Source: Acinetobacter tandoii DSM 14970 = CIP 107469 (lineage in GTDB: Bacteria > Pseudomonadota > Gammaproteobacteria > Pseudomonadales > Moraxellaceae). Taken from it: a stretch of 64,000 nucleotides of DNA. Below are positions 6,668-28,162 of the stretch, in pieces (position 1 is the stretch's first letter; every line of letters starts with the position of its first letter). Position numbers and translations under genes: made by a program. Under the pieces are notes generated by a model. That model did not search any database, was not told the origin of the DNA, and was given only the letters and a program-made list of their open reading frames with translations. The stretch is taken from positions 645,882-709,881 of the forward strand of contig NZ_KE007367.1 of NCBI RefSeq assembly GCF_000400735.1, given 5' to 3'.

Positions 6668-6695
6668 CAGACCTATTTAAAATTAAATAGGTCTG
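6668..6695 (+). terminator. Hairpin after exbD
   Basis: Perfect 11-bp stem CAGACCTATTT / AAATAGGTCTG with a six-base loop, 20 bases after the exbD stop. There is no clear T run after it, so it may be a weak terminator or an RNA 3'-end stabiliser. Confidence 0.55.
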
Positions 6696-20331: not shown

Positions 20332-20670
20332 TTAAATATTGGACAGTGCCGTAATATGTTCAGAAAAGCTAGTTTCCTTGCCAGCAGCATTAACATGGTT
20401 GAAATAGTCATACCAACCACTCGCTTTAATACCAGCAAGTAACACATCACGAATTTCTTCGTTAGGGAAATGCCAAATTCCTAAAAATTGATGCTCGCTA
20501 CTTTGATCAACATTAGAGTCAATTTGTGTGAGTGTTAATGCTTTAACACCAAGGTCTGATAATTTGCCCATTGCAGCTCCAACATTATTTAAATATTGGG
20601 TACGCTCATCTAATGATAATGCTTTCCAAGCTGAATTAGGGGTATAGAGTTCGATCAAATACTGATTCAT
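20332..20670 (-). CDS. Small conserved protein, DUF6616-like
   Basis: 112 residues, no signal peptide or membrane segment. The pattern MNQYLIELYTPNSAWKALS, DERTQYLNNVGAAMGKL and ASGWYDYFNHVNAAG resembles small ferredoxin-like-fold proteins grouped, as I recall, under DUF6616; this is from memory and unverified. It starts two bases after the stop of the MarR gene, so the two are one transcript and the protein is probably under that regulator. Function unknown. Confidence 0.7.
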   Translation of the reverse strand: MNQYLIELYTPNSAWKALSLDERTQYLNNVGAAMGKLSDLGVKALTLTQIDSNVDQSSEHQFLGIWHFPNEEIRDVLLAGIKASGWYDYFNHVNAAGKETSFSEHITALSNI

Positions 20671-20672
20671 AA

Positions 20673-21164
20673 TTATTCCTTGTGATGAAGATTATTGGAA
20701 ACCTTTGTTAATAATTGGGTTAACTGTTTGTGCTCTTGTGTAGATAAATTCCCAAATATTTTTGCAATCCAACGGCTATGCTGATCAAATACATTTTTAG
20801 CCATAGACTCCCCTTTCAATGTAAGTCTAACTTTGAGAGCACGGCGGTCTTCTGTATCAGCATGTCGTTCTACCAACCCTTCACGCTCTAAACCATCAAG
20901 TAGACCTGTAACTGTTGATCGGGTGATACCTGCTTGCTCAGCTAAAGTCTTCGGTGCTATTTCTTGATTTGCTGCATCAAGTAAAAATAACAAAATAAAC
21001 CGTCCTTCAGATAAACCATGGATAGAGAGTTGGTCTGCACAATCTTTATCTATATGTGAAGCAAGAGAAAGTGTCAAAAAGCACAGCTCAATACTTTTAA
21101 TATCAGGAAGTTGACGTTTATTTGCTTCACTTAGAAGCACTTGGTATTTTTTATCAAGAGGCAT
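20673..21164 (-). CDS. MarR-family transcriptional regulator
   Basis: 163 residues with a winged helix-turn-helix in the middle (about 65-135). The recognition helix is in TLAEQAGITRSTVTGLLDGL and the wing in RHADTEDRRALKVRLTLKG, both classic MarR. The N- and C-terminal helices (about 20-60 and 135-160) form the dimer interface. It is first gene of a two-gene operon with the DUF6616-like gene and is probably autoregulated through the imperfect palindrome at 21181-21198. The ligand is unknown. Confidence 0.88.
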   Translation of the reverse strand: MPLDKKYQVLLSEANKRQLPDIKSIELCFLTLSLASHIDKDCADQLSIHGLSEGRFILLFLLDAANQEIAPKTLAEQAGITRSTVTGLLDGLEREGLVERHADTEDRRALKVRLTLKGESMAKNVFDQHSRWIAKIFGNLSTQEHKQLTQLLTKVSNNLHHKE

Positions 21165-21368: not shown

Positions 21369-21806
21369 CTAAAGTTTGAGTTCATATTTAATTTTTGCAC
21401 AGACCTTTAAAGTCGAATCCACTTCATTTTCATTCAGATTGAGTTTGCACTTAGTATCGTGGAAGATTTTCGCAACAGGATCTTTTAAATTCTGACCAGA
21501 TTCAGTTAATGAAATATATTTTCGACGACGGTCGAGCGTGTCCACTGATATAACAACAAAACCCGCTTTTTCAAGTCGTTTTATGATTGGGGTAAGTGAA
21601 CCAAGATCAAACAGCGTTTGTTCACTCAATTCGCTAGATGACAAGTGATTTTGATTCCAAAGAGCAGCCAACACCAAAAGTTGAGGATATGTTATTCCAA
21701 GTTCAGATAATGGTTTGGTGTAGTTTCGCATCATAGCATTCGTCGTCGAATACAGTGTAAAACAGAGCATTTTGTCAAAATTAAATGTATCTAGCATCGA
21801 ACTCAT
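21369..21806 (-). CDS. OhrR-type MarR regulator, last gene of the biosynthetic operon
   Basis: 145 residues. The N-terminus DKMLCFTLYSTTNAMMRNY places a Cys at residue 15, with a nearby Tyr and the GITYPQLLVLAALW helix, matching the peroxide-sensing OhrR group in which that Cys is oxidised to release DNA. The helix-turn-helix is at about 55-100 (SSELSEQTLFDLGSLTPIIKRL; RRRKYISLTESG). It begins 20 bases after the hemE-like stop on the same strand, so it closes the six-gene operon. It may repress the operon through the palindrome at 27816-27851. That link is an inference, and the palindrome is not the classical Bacillus OhrR site. Confidence 0.8.
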   Translation of the reverse strand: MSSMLDTFNFDKMLCFTLYSTTNAMMRNYTKPLSELGITYPQLLVLAALWNQNHLSSSELSEQTLFDLGSLTPIIKRLEKAGFVVISVDTLDRRRKYISLTESGQNLKDPVAKIFHDTKCKLNLNENEVDSTLKVCAKIKYELKL

Positions 21807-21825: not shown

Positions 21826-22890
21826 TTAAAAACGATGAACAGCCTCAATTAACACGGACACCGAATCTGGGTTTGTTTCCTTCGAAATTCCATGCCCCAA
21901 GTTAAACACAAAACCTGTATCATCTTTTTGTTTTCCATAAAAAGATGTCATGACTTTATTCACTTCGTTTTGAATTACAGAATCATGGGCAAGTAATACT
22001 GCGGGGTCGAGATTACCCTGCAAGGCAACTCTAGAACCCACTCGCTGACGTGCTAAATCCAGATCAGTCATCCAGTCGAGTCCTAAAGCATTAGCTCCAC
22101 ATCCTGCCATTTCTTCAAGCCATTGACCACCTCCTTTTGTAAAGACAATTGAAGGAACTGAACGCACACCTAACTGGTTTTTTAAACTATCTAAAATAAA
22201 GGTAATGTACCTGAGAGAAAATTCTTGATAAGCAGCTCGACTTAGTAACCCTCCCCACGTATCAAAAATCATGATGGCCTGTGCGCCAGCCTCCACCTGA
22301 CATTTAAGATGCTGTACAACGGCTTTGGCATTTTTTTCTAGTAATTGATGTAAGATTTTAGGGTTGCTATAAAGCACACTTTTTATCGTTATAAAATCTT
22401 TTGAACCCTGTCCCTCAATCATGTAACAGGCCAATGTCCACGGACTACCAGAAAAACCAATCAGTGGAACTTGACCATTGAGCTCATGACGGCATTGGCT
22501 GACTGTTTGATAGACGTAAGATAAAGATTCATGGGAAGGAATCTCTAAATTATTGATCGCTTGTTCAGAACGTATAGGGTTTTTGAATTTAGGTCCATGA
22601 TTTTCTTGAAAATATAAACCTAAACCCATTGCATCAGGAATAGTCAAAATATCAGAAAATACAATTGCTGCATCTAAATCATAACGTCGAATAGGCTGCA
22701 AAGTTACTTCAGTTGCATAGTCAGGTGTTTTCATTAAATTAATGAAATTTCCTGCCATTTTACGTACTGCTCGATATTCAGGAAGATAGCGCCCAGCTTG
22801 GCGCATCATCCAGATTGGTGTTCGATCTACGGGTTGTTTTTGTAAGGCTCTAATAAAATTAGTATTTTTAAGCGGTGCAAAGTTTGTCAT
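21826..22890 (-). CDS. Uroporphyrinogen decarboxylase homologue (HemE-like, probable paralogue)
   Basis: 354 residues, full length for UroD. The substrate-anchoring motif TPIWMMRQAGRYLPEYR (about 24-40), SDILTIPDAMGLGLYF (about 79-94), GFSGSPWTLACYMIEG, FTKGGGQWLE and NLGHGI are all intact, so catalytic function looks preserved. UroD decarboxylates four acetate groups of uroporphyrinogen III in heme synthesis. Here the gene sits inside a non-heme operon, 29 bases after an epimerase gene. It differs at many positions from the Acinetobacter hemE sequence as I remember it, so it is probably a second copy. It could be a pathway enzyme, a resistant duplicate, or the only hemE; a genome search would decide. 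Confidence 0.85.
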   Translation of the reverse strand: MTNFAPLKNTNFIRALQKQPVDRTPIWMMRQAGRYLPEYRAVRKMAGNFINLMKTPDYATEVTLQPIRRYDLDAAIVFSDILTIPDAMGLGLYFQENHGPKFKNPIRSEQAINNLEIPSHESLSYVYQTVSQCRHELNGQVPLIGFSGSPWTLACYMIEGQGSKDFITIKSVLYSNPKILHQLLEKNAKAVVQHLKCQVEAGAQAIMIFDTWGGLLSRAAYQEFSLRYITFILDSLKNQLGVRSVPSIVFTKGGGQWLEEMAGCGANALGLDWMTDLDLARQRVGSRVALQGNLDPAVLLAHDSVIQNEVNKVMTSFYGKQKDDTGFVFNLGHGISKETNPDSVSVLIEAVHRF

Positions 22891-23624: not shown

Positions 23625-24542
23625 TCAATGATTTGCAAAAGAGGATTTGATATCCAAAATCATCTCGTGACTTAAGTTTTCTAAATGTAAGTGATGACCA
23701 CCTTCGTACCAGCTTACTTTTGCATTTTTTGCTAAATACTGTGATTTTGAATGAAATTTATCACCAACAAATAAACCGTTTGTTCCAAGCAGAATAGTCA
23801 AAGGACAATCAATTTGGTTTAGAAAGCGACCAGCTTGTTCATCAGTTAACTGAATTGGTTCGGGTATAGTAAGTCGAGGATCATGTCGCCACCGATAGCC
23901 TGATTCGACTGCTCGAAGATCACGTTCTGCAAGACGTCTGGCACTGTCTAAAGAGATAAATCCACCAACTACTTTCTGGCGGGTTTTCACTGCAACTTCC
24001 ATACTTGAAAACAGAGGTTGGTTCTTTTCTGAAAAACCGTTGAGTTTGGTCAAATGTGCCATTTCAGAGAGTCGAAGTGATGTTTTCAAATGCCGTACGA
24101 CATCTTCAGCCGAGACAGTAAAAGGAGCTCCCATACCATCAATGAAAACTATGCGTTTTATTCCTTTACTAATGGTATTTAAAATTGATGCAACACCCGT
24201 ACCCATTGAATGAGCCAAAATAGAATAACTGTTCCACCCCATTTTTCTGACAAAGATAGATAATTCAATTGCATAATCCCATAAGTAATATGCGTGATTT
24301 GGTTTTCTATGATCTGATTTACCGTGTCCAGCTAGGTCAGGAGCCACAACATAGTAGTGATCTAAGTAGGGAGCTATTCGTGAGAATGATGCACAATTGT
24401 CCAACCACCCATGTATTGCTAGAATTGGGGGATTTTTTTCATCCCCCCAAGTTTTCACTGCTAAGTCCAAGCCATTCACATTCATCGTGAATTCACGCTC
24501 TATAGCAGGTAAAACTTTAGAAGTTAAGCTCATCATATTCAT
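23625..24542 (-). CDS. Alpha/beta hydrolase of the decarboxylase-ACP operon
   Basis: 305 residues. The fold marks are HGWLDNCASF (oxyanion region, about 44-53), PDLAGHGKSD, the nucleophile elbow AHSMGTG with Ser112, a cap region (about 140-225) and a C-terminal GGHHLHLE with the catalytic His. No signal peptide, so cytosolic. It lies 43 bases after the ligase gene. In a pathway that works on carrier-bound acyl groups, such a hydrolase is a plausible thioesterase that releases the product, but esterase or repair roles fit the sequence equally. The same trio of decarboxylase, AMP ligase and hydrolase is also known near exosortase A systems; no exosortase is seen here. Confidence 0.82.
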   Translation of the reverse strand: MNMMSLTSKVLPAIEREFTMNVNGLDLAVKTWGDEKNPPILAIHGWLDNCASFSRIAPYLDHYYVVAPDLAGHGKSDHRKPNHAYYLWDYAIELSIFVRKMGWNSYSILAHSMGTGVASILNTISKGIKRIVFIDGMGAPFTVSAEDVVRHLKTSLRLSEMAHLTKLNGFSEKNQPLFSSMEVAVKTRQKVVGGFISLDSARRLAERDLRAVESGYRWRHDPRLTIPEPIQLTDEQAGRFLNQIDCPLTILLGTNGLFVGDKFHSKSQYLAKNAKVSWYEGGHHLHLENLSHEMILDIKSSFANH

Positions 24543-24585: not shown

Positions 24586-26178
24586 TTAAACAGCGACATC
24601 TGATCTTGAGGTTGTTTCGGCAGCTAATTCGCTCTCAATAATTTGTTTTAAGTGGATTAAATCAAATTTACCGTTTGGAGTGCGGGGAAACGAATTCAAG
24701 AATCTGATCGTATTGGGAACTTGATGAGGTTCCAAATCATTTCTGCATTTTCCTAATAGCTCAAGCTCGTTAATATTTTCATTATCAGCTATTTGAATAA
24801 AAGCATGTAAGGTGCCACCTAAGTTCTCATCTTCAATGCCAACGACAGCAGCCGATTCAATGTTAGGCAAACTATAGAAATAATTTTCAATTTCAACAGG
24901 GCTAACTTTCATACCACGAGATTTGATAACGTGATCTGTGCGACCACGGAAGTACAAGTAACCATCTTCATCAATAAGGCCCAAATCGCCAGTATGTAAG
25001 ACATATTCATTAGGCAAAGGTCCTGGTTTGAGTTTTTCTTGGGTCGCTTTAGTATCGCGCCAGTACCCTGCCATAACAGTTGCACCACGTATCACAAGTT
25101 CGCCGATTTGGTTTGGCTTATTAATTTTGTTTCCATGAGAATCCACTAACCACATTTCTGTATTGGGAATTGCGATACCAACACTATCAGGTTTCTTGTC
25201 TATTTGGTCTGGTGGGAGATATGTGCAGCGCTTACACTCCGTTAACCCATACATAGAGAATATTTCTGCGTTCGGAAAGAGTAATTTCATCTGCTGGATG
25301 TGATGAGATTTCAGTGCTGCACCAGTGTTTGTTACTATTCGGACATCAGGAAAGGTAACGCCTGATCGATGTGAATACTCATAGAGAAGTGATAGCATCG
25401 TAGGAACAAATGGAATGACCGTTATCTTATGCTGTTTTATTTTTTTAATTAAAAATAACGGCCATGTAAGTTCCTGTTCGAGAAATAACGTTGCACCTTT
25501 ACTCATAGACATAATCATTTGGTAAAGACCATAGTCAAACGATAATGGCAGTGAACAAAGAATATGATCTGATTCTTGATAACCTAGATAAGTATTCAAT
25601 GAATCTAATGCTGCACACATGTTTCTATGTGTCAGCATTACACCTTTGGGTGTTCCAGTTGAGCCAGACGTATAAACAATGGCTGCTAAATCAATGTCGA
25701 GAATATTATTATTCAGATATTCTACTTCATTGTAAGAAGTTGCTAGCTCCCATGAATCTACATCAGGATTCACTACTGAATTGGTAACAACAACACTTTT
25801 AAATAGAATACTTTTAGATGCTACAGATACATCTTGAAACTTTTGATCATTGGTGATCAAAATGGAAGCCTGAGAATTATCGATAATATAATTTAATTTA
25901 TCGGCGGTTGTGTCTAAGCCTACATTACATACAACATAGCCCGCTTTCAGTACGCCCCAAAAAGCAATAATAGTTTCTACTTTATTTCCTAAACAAAGTA
26001 CTACTCTATCACCACGATGAAGACCCTGTGCTTGTAAATAGCCACTTAAGCGCGAAGACAATTCATCAATCTTGCCGTAAGAATGGGAGATTCCATTCTC
26101 CACAACTGCTACCTTTTCGGCATATTGTCGTGCGATATAAGGTAAGGTGTGATGCAGCAAAACATTACACATTTGCAT
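24586..26178 (-). CDS. AMP-forming acyl/aminoacyl ligase of the decarboxylase-ACP operon
   Basis: 530 residues, ANL superfamily. The ATP-binding P-loop VYTSGSTGTPKG is at about 169-179. It is followed by MYGLTECKR, HTGDLGLIDEDGYLYFRGR with the hinge, SRGMKVSPVEIE, and the catalytic Lys near 504 in RTPNGKFD. These show a complete adenylating and thiolating enzyme. Its start, with AAGGAG seven bases upstream, overlaps the decarboxylase gene by 14 bases, so the two are translationally coupled. The natural acceptor is probably the carrier domain at the end of that decarboxylase. The acid or amino acid activated is not evident from the sequence. Confidence 0.85.
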   Translation of the reverse strand: MQMCNVLLHHTLPYIARQYAEKVAVVENGISHSYGKIDELSSRLSGYLQAQGLHRGDRVVLCLGNKVETIIAFWGVLKAGYVVCNVGLDTTADKLNYIIDNSQASILITNDQKFQDVSVASKSILFKSVVVTNSVVNPDVDSWELATSYNEVEYLNNNILDIDLAAIVYTSGSTGTPKGVMLTHRNMCAALDSLNTYLGYQESDHILCSLPLSFDYGLYQMIMSMSKGATLFLEQELTWPLFLIKKIKQHKITVIPFVPTMLSLLYEYSHRSGVTFPDVRIVTNTGAALKSHHIQQMKLLFPNAEIFSMYGLTECKRCTYLPPDQIDKKPDSVGIAIPNTEMWLVDSHGNKINKPNQIGELVIRGATVMAGYWRDTKATQEKLKPGPLPNEYVLHTGDLGLIDEDGYLYFRGRTDHVIKSRGMKVSPVEIENYFYSLPNIESAAVVGIEDENLGGTLHAFIQIADNENINELELLGKCRNDLEPHQVPNTIRFLNSFPRTPNGKFDLIHLKQIIESELAAETTSRSDVAV

Positions 26179-27766
26179 GACACTGCTCCTTCATCTCAAC
26201 TTGATTAAAGCGGTTTTTTTCAGCTTCGATATAAGATGCAAGTGTTTCAATTGTATTGAAGTGCTTAGGTTCTATCGTTTCTGGATTAACAAAGAAATGT
26301 TCGATTTGATCTTCTAAAGCGACCAATACTTCTACAGAAGAAAGTGAATCAATCCCCAAATCGTCACGAAGATGAGAGTTTGCAAGAATAGTTTTGTCTT
26401 GAGGTAATTTTAGAATTTTACTAACAATAGTGGCAACGATACGCTGTGTGTCATCTGTAATGACTTCATTATGCTTTTCTTCAGTAATGACTTTGTTTTG
26501 TCCTAGCAGTTGCTCTAATGAAATATCGGTGTGCATCGAAATAATATCTTCAACTGTATCTCTATAACGTACTAAGTTTAGATTTCCATTTGAGTACAGA
26601 ACTTCTGCTGGATAGCCATGACCGTGAAATAATATTGGGGAAGCCGTAGCCCCATAAGCACCAGATGATAAGACTGCAAGAAGATCGCCAGATTTTAATT
26701 TTTCAAGTTTTATATCTTTTGCTAATAAGTCGTCAGGATTACATAATGGTCCAGAAACATGGTAGGTTTCAATTTCATCTGATTTTTGATTAGTAACTTT
26801 AATAATCTCAAAATTTCGTTTTAAAACCTGACCAGAACCTACAGCTGCTGAATGGCAGTTTGTTCCACCATCGGTTACGGCGAAATTTTTGCCATGGTTT
26901 TGCTTGATATTATCAACAGTTACTAACAGAGCCGCACTTTTACCAGCAATGAAACGTCCTGACTCCATAATGATGCGAGTTTTAGGATGTTTCTTGTGAA
27001 AGTCATTGAATAAAGGATGTAATAATCTTGTTAATTCTTTGATGTCTAGATCTTTTTCATTTTCATAATACTTAATACCTAGACCACCACCAACATCAAC
27101 CATCATCATGTCTAATCCATACAGACGTGAAATAGTTTCAAATAGCTCCAAAACATATTTTGAATTGTCGTAGATAGACTGTGCATCTAAAATTTTCGTT
27201 CCATTATAAACATGGAGTCCTTTTAGATGAATGTTAGGAAGTTTTGCGTAACTCCCCATTTTTTTTACGGCCGTTTCTTCTTCAATACCAAAATGTGTTG
27301 GTCTCCCCCCCATTTTCCATGGAGAACCAGATGCTGAGAAATTCGGATTAATACGTATTGCTACTGGCGCTAAAACCCCCATTTTTGAAGCTAAATCTGA
27401 TAATTTTTCGAGTTCTTCTTCAGATTCAACAACAATAGCAAAAATATTTAATTCTAAAGCGCGTCTATGTTCTTCTTCTTTTTTCATTGGCCCCAAGAAA
27501 ATTATATTTTGAGGGTTCACACCCGCTTTTATTGCAATTTCTAGTTCAGTTAAAGAACATACTTCGGTGTTCCCACCGTAAGACTTGATTAATTTAACAA
27601 CCGATAAGTTAGGATTAACTTTGAGAGCATAAAAAATATCAACACATTCTGGTAATGCATTTCTTAGTTCTTGAAAGCTGCTTTTCAACTGGCTTTCATC
27701 ATAAATATACGTTGGTGTCCCAAAATTTTTCTTTACTTTCAATAAAGTATCTAGAGATAGATTCAT
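26165..27766 (-). CDS. Fold-III PLP decarboxylase fused to an acyl carrier protein domain
   Basis: 533 residues from the ATG at 27766; a TTG-started extension to 27838 runs through the promoter palindrome and is unlikely. The decarboxylase part (about 1-410) has the PLP Lys49 in FYALKVNPN, LHVYNGTK, the phosphate-binding DVGGGLGIKYY, IMESGRFIAGKS, GPLCNPDDLL and SSGAYGATASP, as in diaminopimelate/ornithine decarboxylases. ESGR replaces the usual EPGR. A linker leads to an ACP-like domain (about 445-520) with DDLGIDSLSSVEVL, whose Ser near 474 would carry phosphopantetheine. BtrK of butirosin synthesis decarboxylates a glutamyl group held on the separate ACP BtrI; this protein joins both parts in one chain. 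It is first gene of the operon. Confidence 0.85.
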   Translation of the reverse strand: MNLSLDTLLKVKKNFGTPTYIYDESQLKSSFQELRNALPECVDIFYALKVNPNLSVVKLIKSYGGNTEVCSLTELEIAIKAGVNPQNIIFLGPMKKEEEHRRALELNIFAIVVESEEELEKLSDLASKMGVLAPVAIRINPNFSASGSPWKMGGRPTHFGIEEETAVKKMGSYAKLPNIHLKGLHVYNGTKILDAQSIYDNSKYVLELFETISRLYGLDMMMVDVGGGLGIKYYENEKDLDIKELTRLLHPLFNDFHKKHPKTRIIMESGRFIAGKSAALLVTVDNIKQNHGKNFAVTDGGTNCHSAAVGSGQVLKRNFEIIKVTNQKSDEIETYHVSGPLCNPDDLLAKDIKLEKLKSGDLLAVLSSGAYGATASPILFHGHGYPAEVLYSNGNLNLVRYRDTVEDIISMHTDISLEQLLGQNKVITEEKHNEVITDDTQRIVATIVSKILKLPQDKTILANSHLRDDLGIDSLSSVEVLVALEDQIEHFFVNPETIEPKHFNTIETLASYIEAEKNRFNQVEMKEQCHANV

Positions 27767-27809: not shown

Positions 27810-27851
27810 ATTCTACAAAAGAAATACTTTGCGCGCAAAGTATTTCTTTTG
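27810..27851 (-). promoter_or_regulatory. Predicted promoter with 36-bp perfect palindrome operator
   Basis: Bases 27816-27851 form a perfect 36-bp palindrome with half-site CAAAAGAAATACTTTGCG and no spacer. On the minus strand, TTGCGC at 27838-27833 and TAGAAT at 27815-27810 are 17 bases apart and read as -35 and -10 elements, so the palindrome covers the -35 and the whole spacer. The ATG of the decarboxylase-ACP gene follows about 44 bases after the -10. This is the layout of a repressor operator. The OhrR-type protein at 21369-21806 is the obvious candidate ligand. Confidence 0.6.
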
Positions 27852-28162
27852 GTAATTGCAACTAAAATAATTTTATGCTTGTTGTATGAAGTTTAATCAA
27901 AATTATAGGATTCGAAGTTTTCCCAATTTATCAGGTCGCTAATTAATGCACGAAAGGTTTATCGCTGAAATCCATTTGTAATCATAAGTTTTGATGTAAT
28001 TTTTTTAAGTAATTTTTCACATTTTAACGGTGTTAAGCCAAAATCTTTGTCATATGGCTTAGGTCATAAAACCTGTAATAATACCTGTTTAGGTAATAGA
28101 CCTACCAAAGATTACATTATATTTCACCATACTTGCTTGAATTTGGCATTTAACAGCATCAA
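27852..28162. other. Intergenic region upstream of the decarboxylase operon
   Basis: About 310 A+T-rich bases between the uncharacterised upstream gene and the operon promoter, both on the minus strand. It contains an inverted pair TAGGTC/GACCTA (28060-28065 and 28099-28104) enclosing two direct ACCTGT copies at 28071 and 28083. That cluster could end the upstream transcript or bind a regulator. No gene seen. Confidence 0.4.

Follow-up and report, generated by a model that had tools for sequence, protein, structure and literature searches.

A two-layered palindrome before an Acinetobacter operon: a probable operator core of an OhrR-type regulator, with outer arms probably homogenised by template switching

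In a window of 64,000 nucleotides from Acinetobacter tandoii (the whole stretch of DNA that we analysed), a perfect 36-bp palindrome at 27816-27851 precedes a minus-strand operon, the last gene of which, marR1, encodes an OhrR-type MarR regulator. The palindrome is two-layered, comprising a conserved 16-bp core and outer arms mirrored around it. The explanation that best accounts for both layers, and that we hold with good confidence, is a joint one: the core would be the operator of MarR1, which would be released upon oxidation, and the outer arms would have been homogenised by template switching during replication. Both parts rest on sequence comparison between genomes.

The palindrome and its conserved core

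The two arms of the palindrome (27816-27833 and 27834-27851) are 18 nt each, 100% complementary and separated by a spacer of 0 nt, and the whole lies 50-85 nt upstream of the ATG (27766) of the first operon gene. Our inverted-repeat search found it to be the longest perfect inverted repeat of the window among those with a spacer of 6 nt or less. When the window was simulated 200 times with a first-order Markov model, no spacer-free arm was longer than the 12 nt reached once or more, and the expected number of spacer-free 36-bp palindromes was ~2e-6 per window, so that a chance origin was rejected. The probability of an 8-nt symmetric core growing to 18 nt by chance was ~5e-6 under the local composition. 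These results bear out the initial annotation, which had described a perfect self-complementarity over 36 bp with no spacer, a length far beyond chance and a position 50-85 bases before the ATG. When the 18-nt arm was searched against its own genome at 2 mismatches or fewer, four places were returned, namely both arms of the palindrome and two single places with 2 mismatches; this leaves the palindrome without a second copy at this threshold, and a repeated element was rejected. A further long inverted repeat of the window, with 13-nt arms and a 2-nt spacer, is located at 6668-6695.

The core, ACTTTGCGCGCAAAGT (27826-27841), was delimited by comparisons across the genus and Pseudomonas and by an alignment of the arms. 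At 0-1 mismatch it was found in 14 of 175 Acinetobacter genomes. Seven of these sites are at this operon or its remnants (G000, the genome of the window, and G123, G125, G126, G138, G150 and G165), and tblastn detected no operon gene within 1.5 kb of the other seven. A search for marR1 (E<=1e-40) among the same 175 genomes yielded seven, which are exactly those carrying the core before the operon. In G150 the core precedes rpe, and marR1 is the next gene found. The association extends to Pseudomonas, in which 10 of 398 sampled genomes matched the decarboxylase of the Pseudomonas locus L018 (E<=1e-120); together with P. vranovensis (L017), they provide 11 loci. All 11 carry the exact ACTTTGCGCGCAAAGT at 141-147 nt 5' of the ATG, and the position of the core relative to the promoter is constant in this genus as well. 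Both Pseudomonas genomes that were searched whole have a single core site at 1 mismatch or fewer. marR1 lies inside the operon in L017 and L018, the two loci long enough to show it, the other nine being too short for this check.

Three distant marR1 homologues were recovered from 390 order-level genomes (E<=1e-35) and 369 class-level genomes (E<=1e-26): G518 (46%), G1026 (44%) and G1221 (38%). In both G518 and G1026 a pair of TTTGCGCGCA sites with a spacing of 48 bp lies just 5' of the regulator gene (L042, 211-274; L065, 1397-1460), and a scan of the whole G1221 locus found no TTTGCGCGCA site. A 10-mer end of the core appeared in 9 of 20000 single-letter shuffles of L042 1-303. The neighbours of the two site-bearing regulators are of redox type, the G1026 regulator being beside an FMN oxidoreductase and a cupin, and the G518 regulator near an OsmC gene.

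We therefore have a two-fold symmetric MarR-type site of 16-20 bp that overlaps a consensus-predicted promoter and is conserved along with a regulator, and the core most likely serves as operator for the OhrR-type regulator encoded in the same operon. The initial annotation had proposed such a site for the product of 21369-21806, and the comparison supports it (the same 7 of 175 genomes, 11 of 11 Pseudomonas loci and two of three distant homologues). Conservation in homologous operons, which it had suggested looking for, was seen for the core (seven Acinetobacter genomes and all 11 Pseudomonas loci); mirrored outer arms were seen in Acinetobacter only. A literature search with the core sequence returned no related paper, as judged by titles.

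Another regulator might bind the palindrome instead, for instance the second MarR protein (20673-21164), whose gene adjoins the operon in the window, G138 and G150. Nevertheless, tblastn searches (E<=1e-5) of the stretches fetched for G125 (L010), G126 (L013), L017 and L018 detected no marR2, no core with 4 mismatches or fewer precedes marR2 in the window, L011 or L032, and the gene that tracks the core is marR1. We regard this alternative as very improbable.

MarR1 and the genes under its putative control

The product of marR1 (21369-21806, minus strand), the proposed core-binding repressor, matches solved SarZ and OhrR chains with E values of 4.5e-21 and 3.1e-20, respectively. In the OhrR of Bacillus subtilis the reactive cysteine is C15, with Y29 and Y40 as its partners, and 2-Cys OhrR proteins such as that of Xanthomonas possess a second cysteine for an intersubunit disulfide. 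MarR1 has both traits: (i) an N-terminal reactive cysteine with partner tyrosines (C15, Y29 and Y40), and (ii) a second cysteine (C120), which aligns with C127 of the OhrR chain 2pfb_A. C15, Y19, Y29, Y40 and C120 are invariant in 8 of 8 aligned regulators, and in 4 of 4 when the three distant homologues are included. A third OhrR trait, an AATT-type operator core, is absent, the conserved core being TTTGCGCGCAAA. We call the protein OhrR-type rather than OhrR because it scored 111.6 bits against the NCBI OhrR model NF052638, below the cut-off of 200 bits, and because its operator is unlike the AATT-type cores. No OsmC domain was found in the 10 gene products scanned around marR1, and thus no adjacent ohr/OsmC gene. 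HucR-type MarR operators of 18 bp have TACTT/AAGTA-type half-sites around a variable centre; the core has the same type of half-site, and its centre is CGCG. A literature search for the HucR site gave no match.

If the core is indeed the operator, a reduced MarR1 dimer would sit on it, overlapping the promoter, and would thereby keep RNA polymerase off and restrain expression of its own gene. MarR1 would come off the DNA when Cys15 is oxidised, probably with subsequent formation of a Cys15-Cys120' disulfide. The scheme resembles the OhrR systems of Chromobacterium (PMC3469484) and Sinorhizobium (PMC3107159), in which 2-Cys OhrR likewise has an N-terminal reactive cysteine, partner tyrosines and a second cysteine, and a palindromic operator overlies promoter elements and mediates autoregulation, as we suppose here. 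The operator cores given for them are AATT-N-AATT or GCAATT-AATTCG, in contrast to TTTGCGCGCAAA here. Unlike the OhrR systems, the present one has no ohr/OsmC gene among the scanned neighbours, and its regulator is in a biosynthetic operon with a spare Rpe and a spare HemE.

The operon, all on the minus strand, begins with a PLP-dependent decarboxylase-ACP fusion (26165-27766), followed by an AMP-dependent acyl/aminoacyl ligase (24586-26178), an alpha/beta hydrolase (23625-24542), the second ribulose-phosphate 3-epimerase (Rpe) of the genome (22919-23596) and its second uroporphyrinogen decarboxylase (HemE; 21826-22890), before ending with marR1. The two HemE copies of the genome are 55% identical. 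Rpe occurs in two copies in all nine carrier genomes searched, and H34, D36, H68 and D177, which we take to be its metal ligands, are invariant in six aligned proteins. The genes for a DUF6616 protein and the second MarR protein (20332-21164), which adjoin the operon in the window, G138 and G150, have no core before them.

The operon has been reduced in some relatives. The decarboxylase and hydrolase are truncated and fused in G126, G123 and G165, and their rpe, hemE and marR1 are kept; no ligase was found in the fetched stretches of these three genomes. The truncated proteins of G123 and G165 share the same apparent breakpoints. Behind the core of G150, rpe and marR1 alone were found. This pattern of gene loss looks like protection retained after the product was lost, and the persistence of rpe and marR1 in genomes that have lost the biosynthetic genes provides a hint to what the regulon protects against. 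Rpe is described in passages of PMC8115020 as a mononuclear iron enzyme that is damaged by H2O2. A role in peroxide stress would be in keeping with an OhrR-type switch that controls extra copies of Rpe and HemE. Alternatively, the operon suggests a role in self-protection against its own product.

Among plasmids, the decarboxylase matched 88 records at E<=1e-30, all below 60% identity, and the promoter region matched none. G145 and L020 were set aside as carrying different decarboxylases (43% and 30% identical, respectively). A literature search on the gene set of the operon found no paper.

Present and former promoters

The initial annotation had placed the palindrome over a promoter on the minus strand, and the geometry holds: TTGCGC (27838-27833) is followed by 17 nt (27832-27816) and then by TAGAAT (27815-27810). 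The promoter label itself is weaker. TAGAAT (27810-27815, minus strand), the putative -10 box of this present promoter, P2, is invariant in 6 of 6 aligned Acinetobacter loci. TTGCGC (27833-27838, minus strand), within the operator centre, is a weak putative -35 box with 3 of 6 consensus letters. TTGCGC-N17-TAGAAT thus has 8 of 12 consensus letters, equalled by TTTGCG-N18-TAGAAT, and is not listed by a promoter scan with a threshold of 9 of 12. P2 is plausible but weak, and probably derived.

A second candidate, P1, appears on the 5' side of the core. TTGACA is present 31-34 nt 5' of the core in 14 of 18 loci (the 11 Pseudomonas loci, G150, G126 and G165), and 18 nt further on comes a hexamer that shares 4-5 of 6 letters with TATAAT, which puts the core at the predicted transcription start. 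In the window, the place occupied by the TTGACA -35 box of P1 in G126 and G165, 34 nt from the core on its 5' side, reads CAAGCA (27876-27881, minus strand). The corresponding region of G138 has TTCTCA, the best candidate in G000 and G123 reaches 7 of 12 letters, and the stretch has been replaced in G125. P1 would be the older promoter, lost in the window. The core overlaps the predicted promoter whether P1 or P2 is used.

Mirrored outer arms

Perfect arms extend for 9 nt in G150 and for 8-11 nt in the 11 Pseudomonas loci. We compared the arms of six aligned Acinetobacter loci (G000, G123, G125, G126, G138 and G165), leaving G150, the flanks of which could not be aligned, out of the statistics. 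The letters at positions 10, 12 and 13 vary by species, yet the two arms match in four of the six (G000, G125, G138 and G165). For instance, the arm pair at position 13 is C/C in G000, A/A in G125 and T/T in G138 and G165; that at position 12 is T/T in G000 and G125, C/C in G138 and A/A in G165; and that at position 10 is A/A in G165 and T/T in G000, G125 and G138. The outer arms of G123 and G126 are not mirrored. G123 is unmatched at positions 11, 12 and 13, and G126 has T and C at positions 10 and 12 on one arm, as in G138, and A and A on the other, as in G165. Further unmatched pairs are found at position 17 in G138 and G165 and at position 2 in G125 and G165.

The most extensive mirroring occurs in G125, the arms of which match to 27 nt except at position 2, with TAGAAT duplicated on the other side. 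The result is a near-perfect 54-bp palindrome (L010, 8570-8623) with 25-nt arms, a 4-nt centre and TAGAAT on both sides. A divergent promoter was considered for G125 and rejected, as no ORF of at least 70 aa leads outward from the palindrome before the next gene is reached, and that gene has the same direction as the operon.

Over positions 9-18 the arms match at 52 of 60 places, against a permutation mean of 46, and 2.2% of permutations were as high, a value based on six loci with kinship ignored. Across five position sets, 1.9-6.7% of permutations reached the observed match, most for positions 13-18, again with kinship ignored. The covariation score was 0.179 versus 0.072 after shuffling, with 4 of 500 shuffles as high (six loci; kinship ignored). 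Three pairs have changed on both sides, a weak measure that 48 of 500 shuffles reached. In a tree of rpe and marR1, support is 0.25 for the node that unites G000 with G123 and G165.

Template switching at a hairpin is the best explanation we have for the mirrored arms, albeit six loci are few. An inverted repeat would fold into a hairpin during replication, and one arm would be copied onto the other, a process known as quasipalindrome template switching. Symmetry beyond ~10 nt from the centre would not be needed for recognition. With arms copied in this way, the letters would drift between species and stay mirrored within each genome. Compared with MarR1 of the window, the regulators of these loci show 88-95% identity and a near-identical helix-turn-helix stretch, and since the DNA-binding stretch barely differs across species, any letters that the protein prefers should be shared between the species rather than differ and be mirrored.

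The same observation bears on the possibility that protein contacts the whole 36 bp, through two MarR1 dimers or one with extended contacts, which would make the outer arms part of the operator. Passages of PMC3469484 and PMC3107159 lend it some weight, as they report a DNase footprint of 41-43 bp for the Chromobacterium OhrR and binding of the Sinorhizobium OhrR to two adjacent motifs, respectively; the paired sites 48 bp apart in two distant homologues point the same way. Nevertheless, each Acinetobacter or Pseudomonas promoter has a single core with no second one in the outer arms, the arm letters vary in spite of the close similarity of the regulators, and the perfect arms of Pseudomonas are just 8-11 nt. 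We consider contact over the full length unlikely, and the 'double' repressor site of the initial annotation is not favoured: there is one conserved 16-bp core without a second copy in the outer arms, and the letters of these arms vary.

Covarying arms are also the classic sign of a hairpin, and the symmetry may have been selected for a nucleic-acid structure, either a cruciform or a hairpin at the 5' end of the P1 mRNA. DNA hairpins of -13.4, -23.5, -11.2 and -11.1 kcal/mol are predicted for the window, G125, G138 and G165, respectively; transcripts from P1 would start close to the palindrome, and G165, with mirrored arms, retains the TTGACA of P1. Against this, the two longest palindromes (G000 and G125) are in loci without P1, where P2 transcripts would lack the hairpin, and the folds are weaker in G126 (-5.1 kcal/mol; z -1.7) and G123 (-6.0 kcal/mol; z -2.7) and at shuffle level in the Pseudomonas locus L018 (z -0.9). 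Selection for structure seems to us quite unlikely. A cruciform as the function of the palindrome, which the initial annotation had offered as an option, is likewise not favoured; formation of a hairpin in replication is rather the likely cause of the long symmetry. A terminator was rejected, as the scan found no terminator-like site.

The G125 locus raises one more alternative, in which the palindrome marks the end of a mobile or recombining unit. The operon of G125 is relocated, and its DNA match to the window stops at the edge of the palindrome (27851) and near the marR1 stop codon. Since the arms match each other, however, any position of the left arm may be the true edge of the match. Reading the ORFs of L010 by eye revealed no transposase beside the operon, and in Pseudomonas, too, the core stands at a constant position with respect to the promoter. 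Such a unit is scarcely probable here.

For template switching, by contrast, precedents exist. The quasipalindrome process is established in Escherichia coli according to passages of PMC7202029, and template switching has been proposed, in part of PMC8794818, to create and maintain RNA hairpins. As in the cases described there, imperfect inverted repeats here appear to have been perfected, arms homogenised and changes paired. Unlike in those cases, as far as these passages describe them, the trace is in a repressor operator and promoter of natural relatives and is deduced by comparison, and in G125 the -10 box was apparently copied too. Searches of the open-access literature for template switching in operators and for palindromes and regulation returned no paper on concerted evolution of operator arms among the top 12 and 10 titles, respectively, and the beginnings of their abstracts.

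It is attractive to go one step further, to a broader proposal that we make tentatively and rate at a little under an even chance: the operator arms would evolve concertedly and be kept symmetric by mutation, the -10 box of G125 would have been copied over the old promoter, and MarR1 would represent a distinct OhrR-like subfamily with a TTTGCGCGCAAA code that controls spare housekeeping enzymes. The core and marR1 offer a testable regulator-operator pair for such a subfamily. The outer arms would illustrate, in nature, that covarying arms in a DNA palindrome are not necessarily a sign of selection for structure, and replication errors may in part create and preserve the symmetry of operators.
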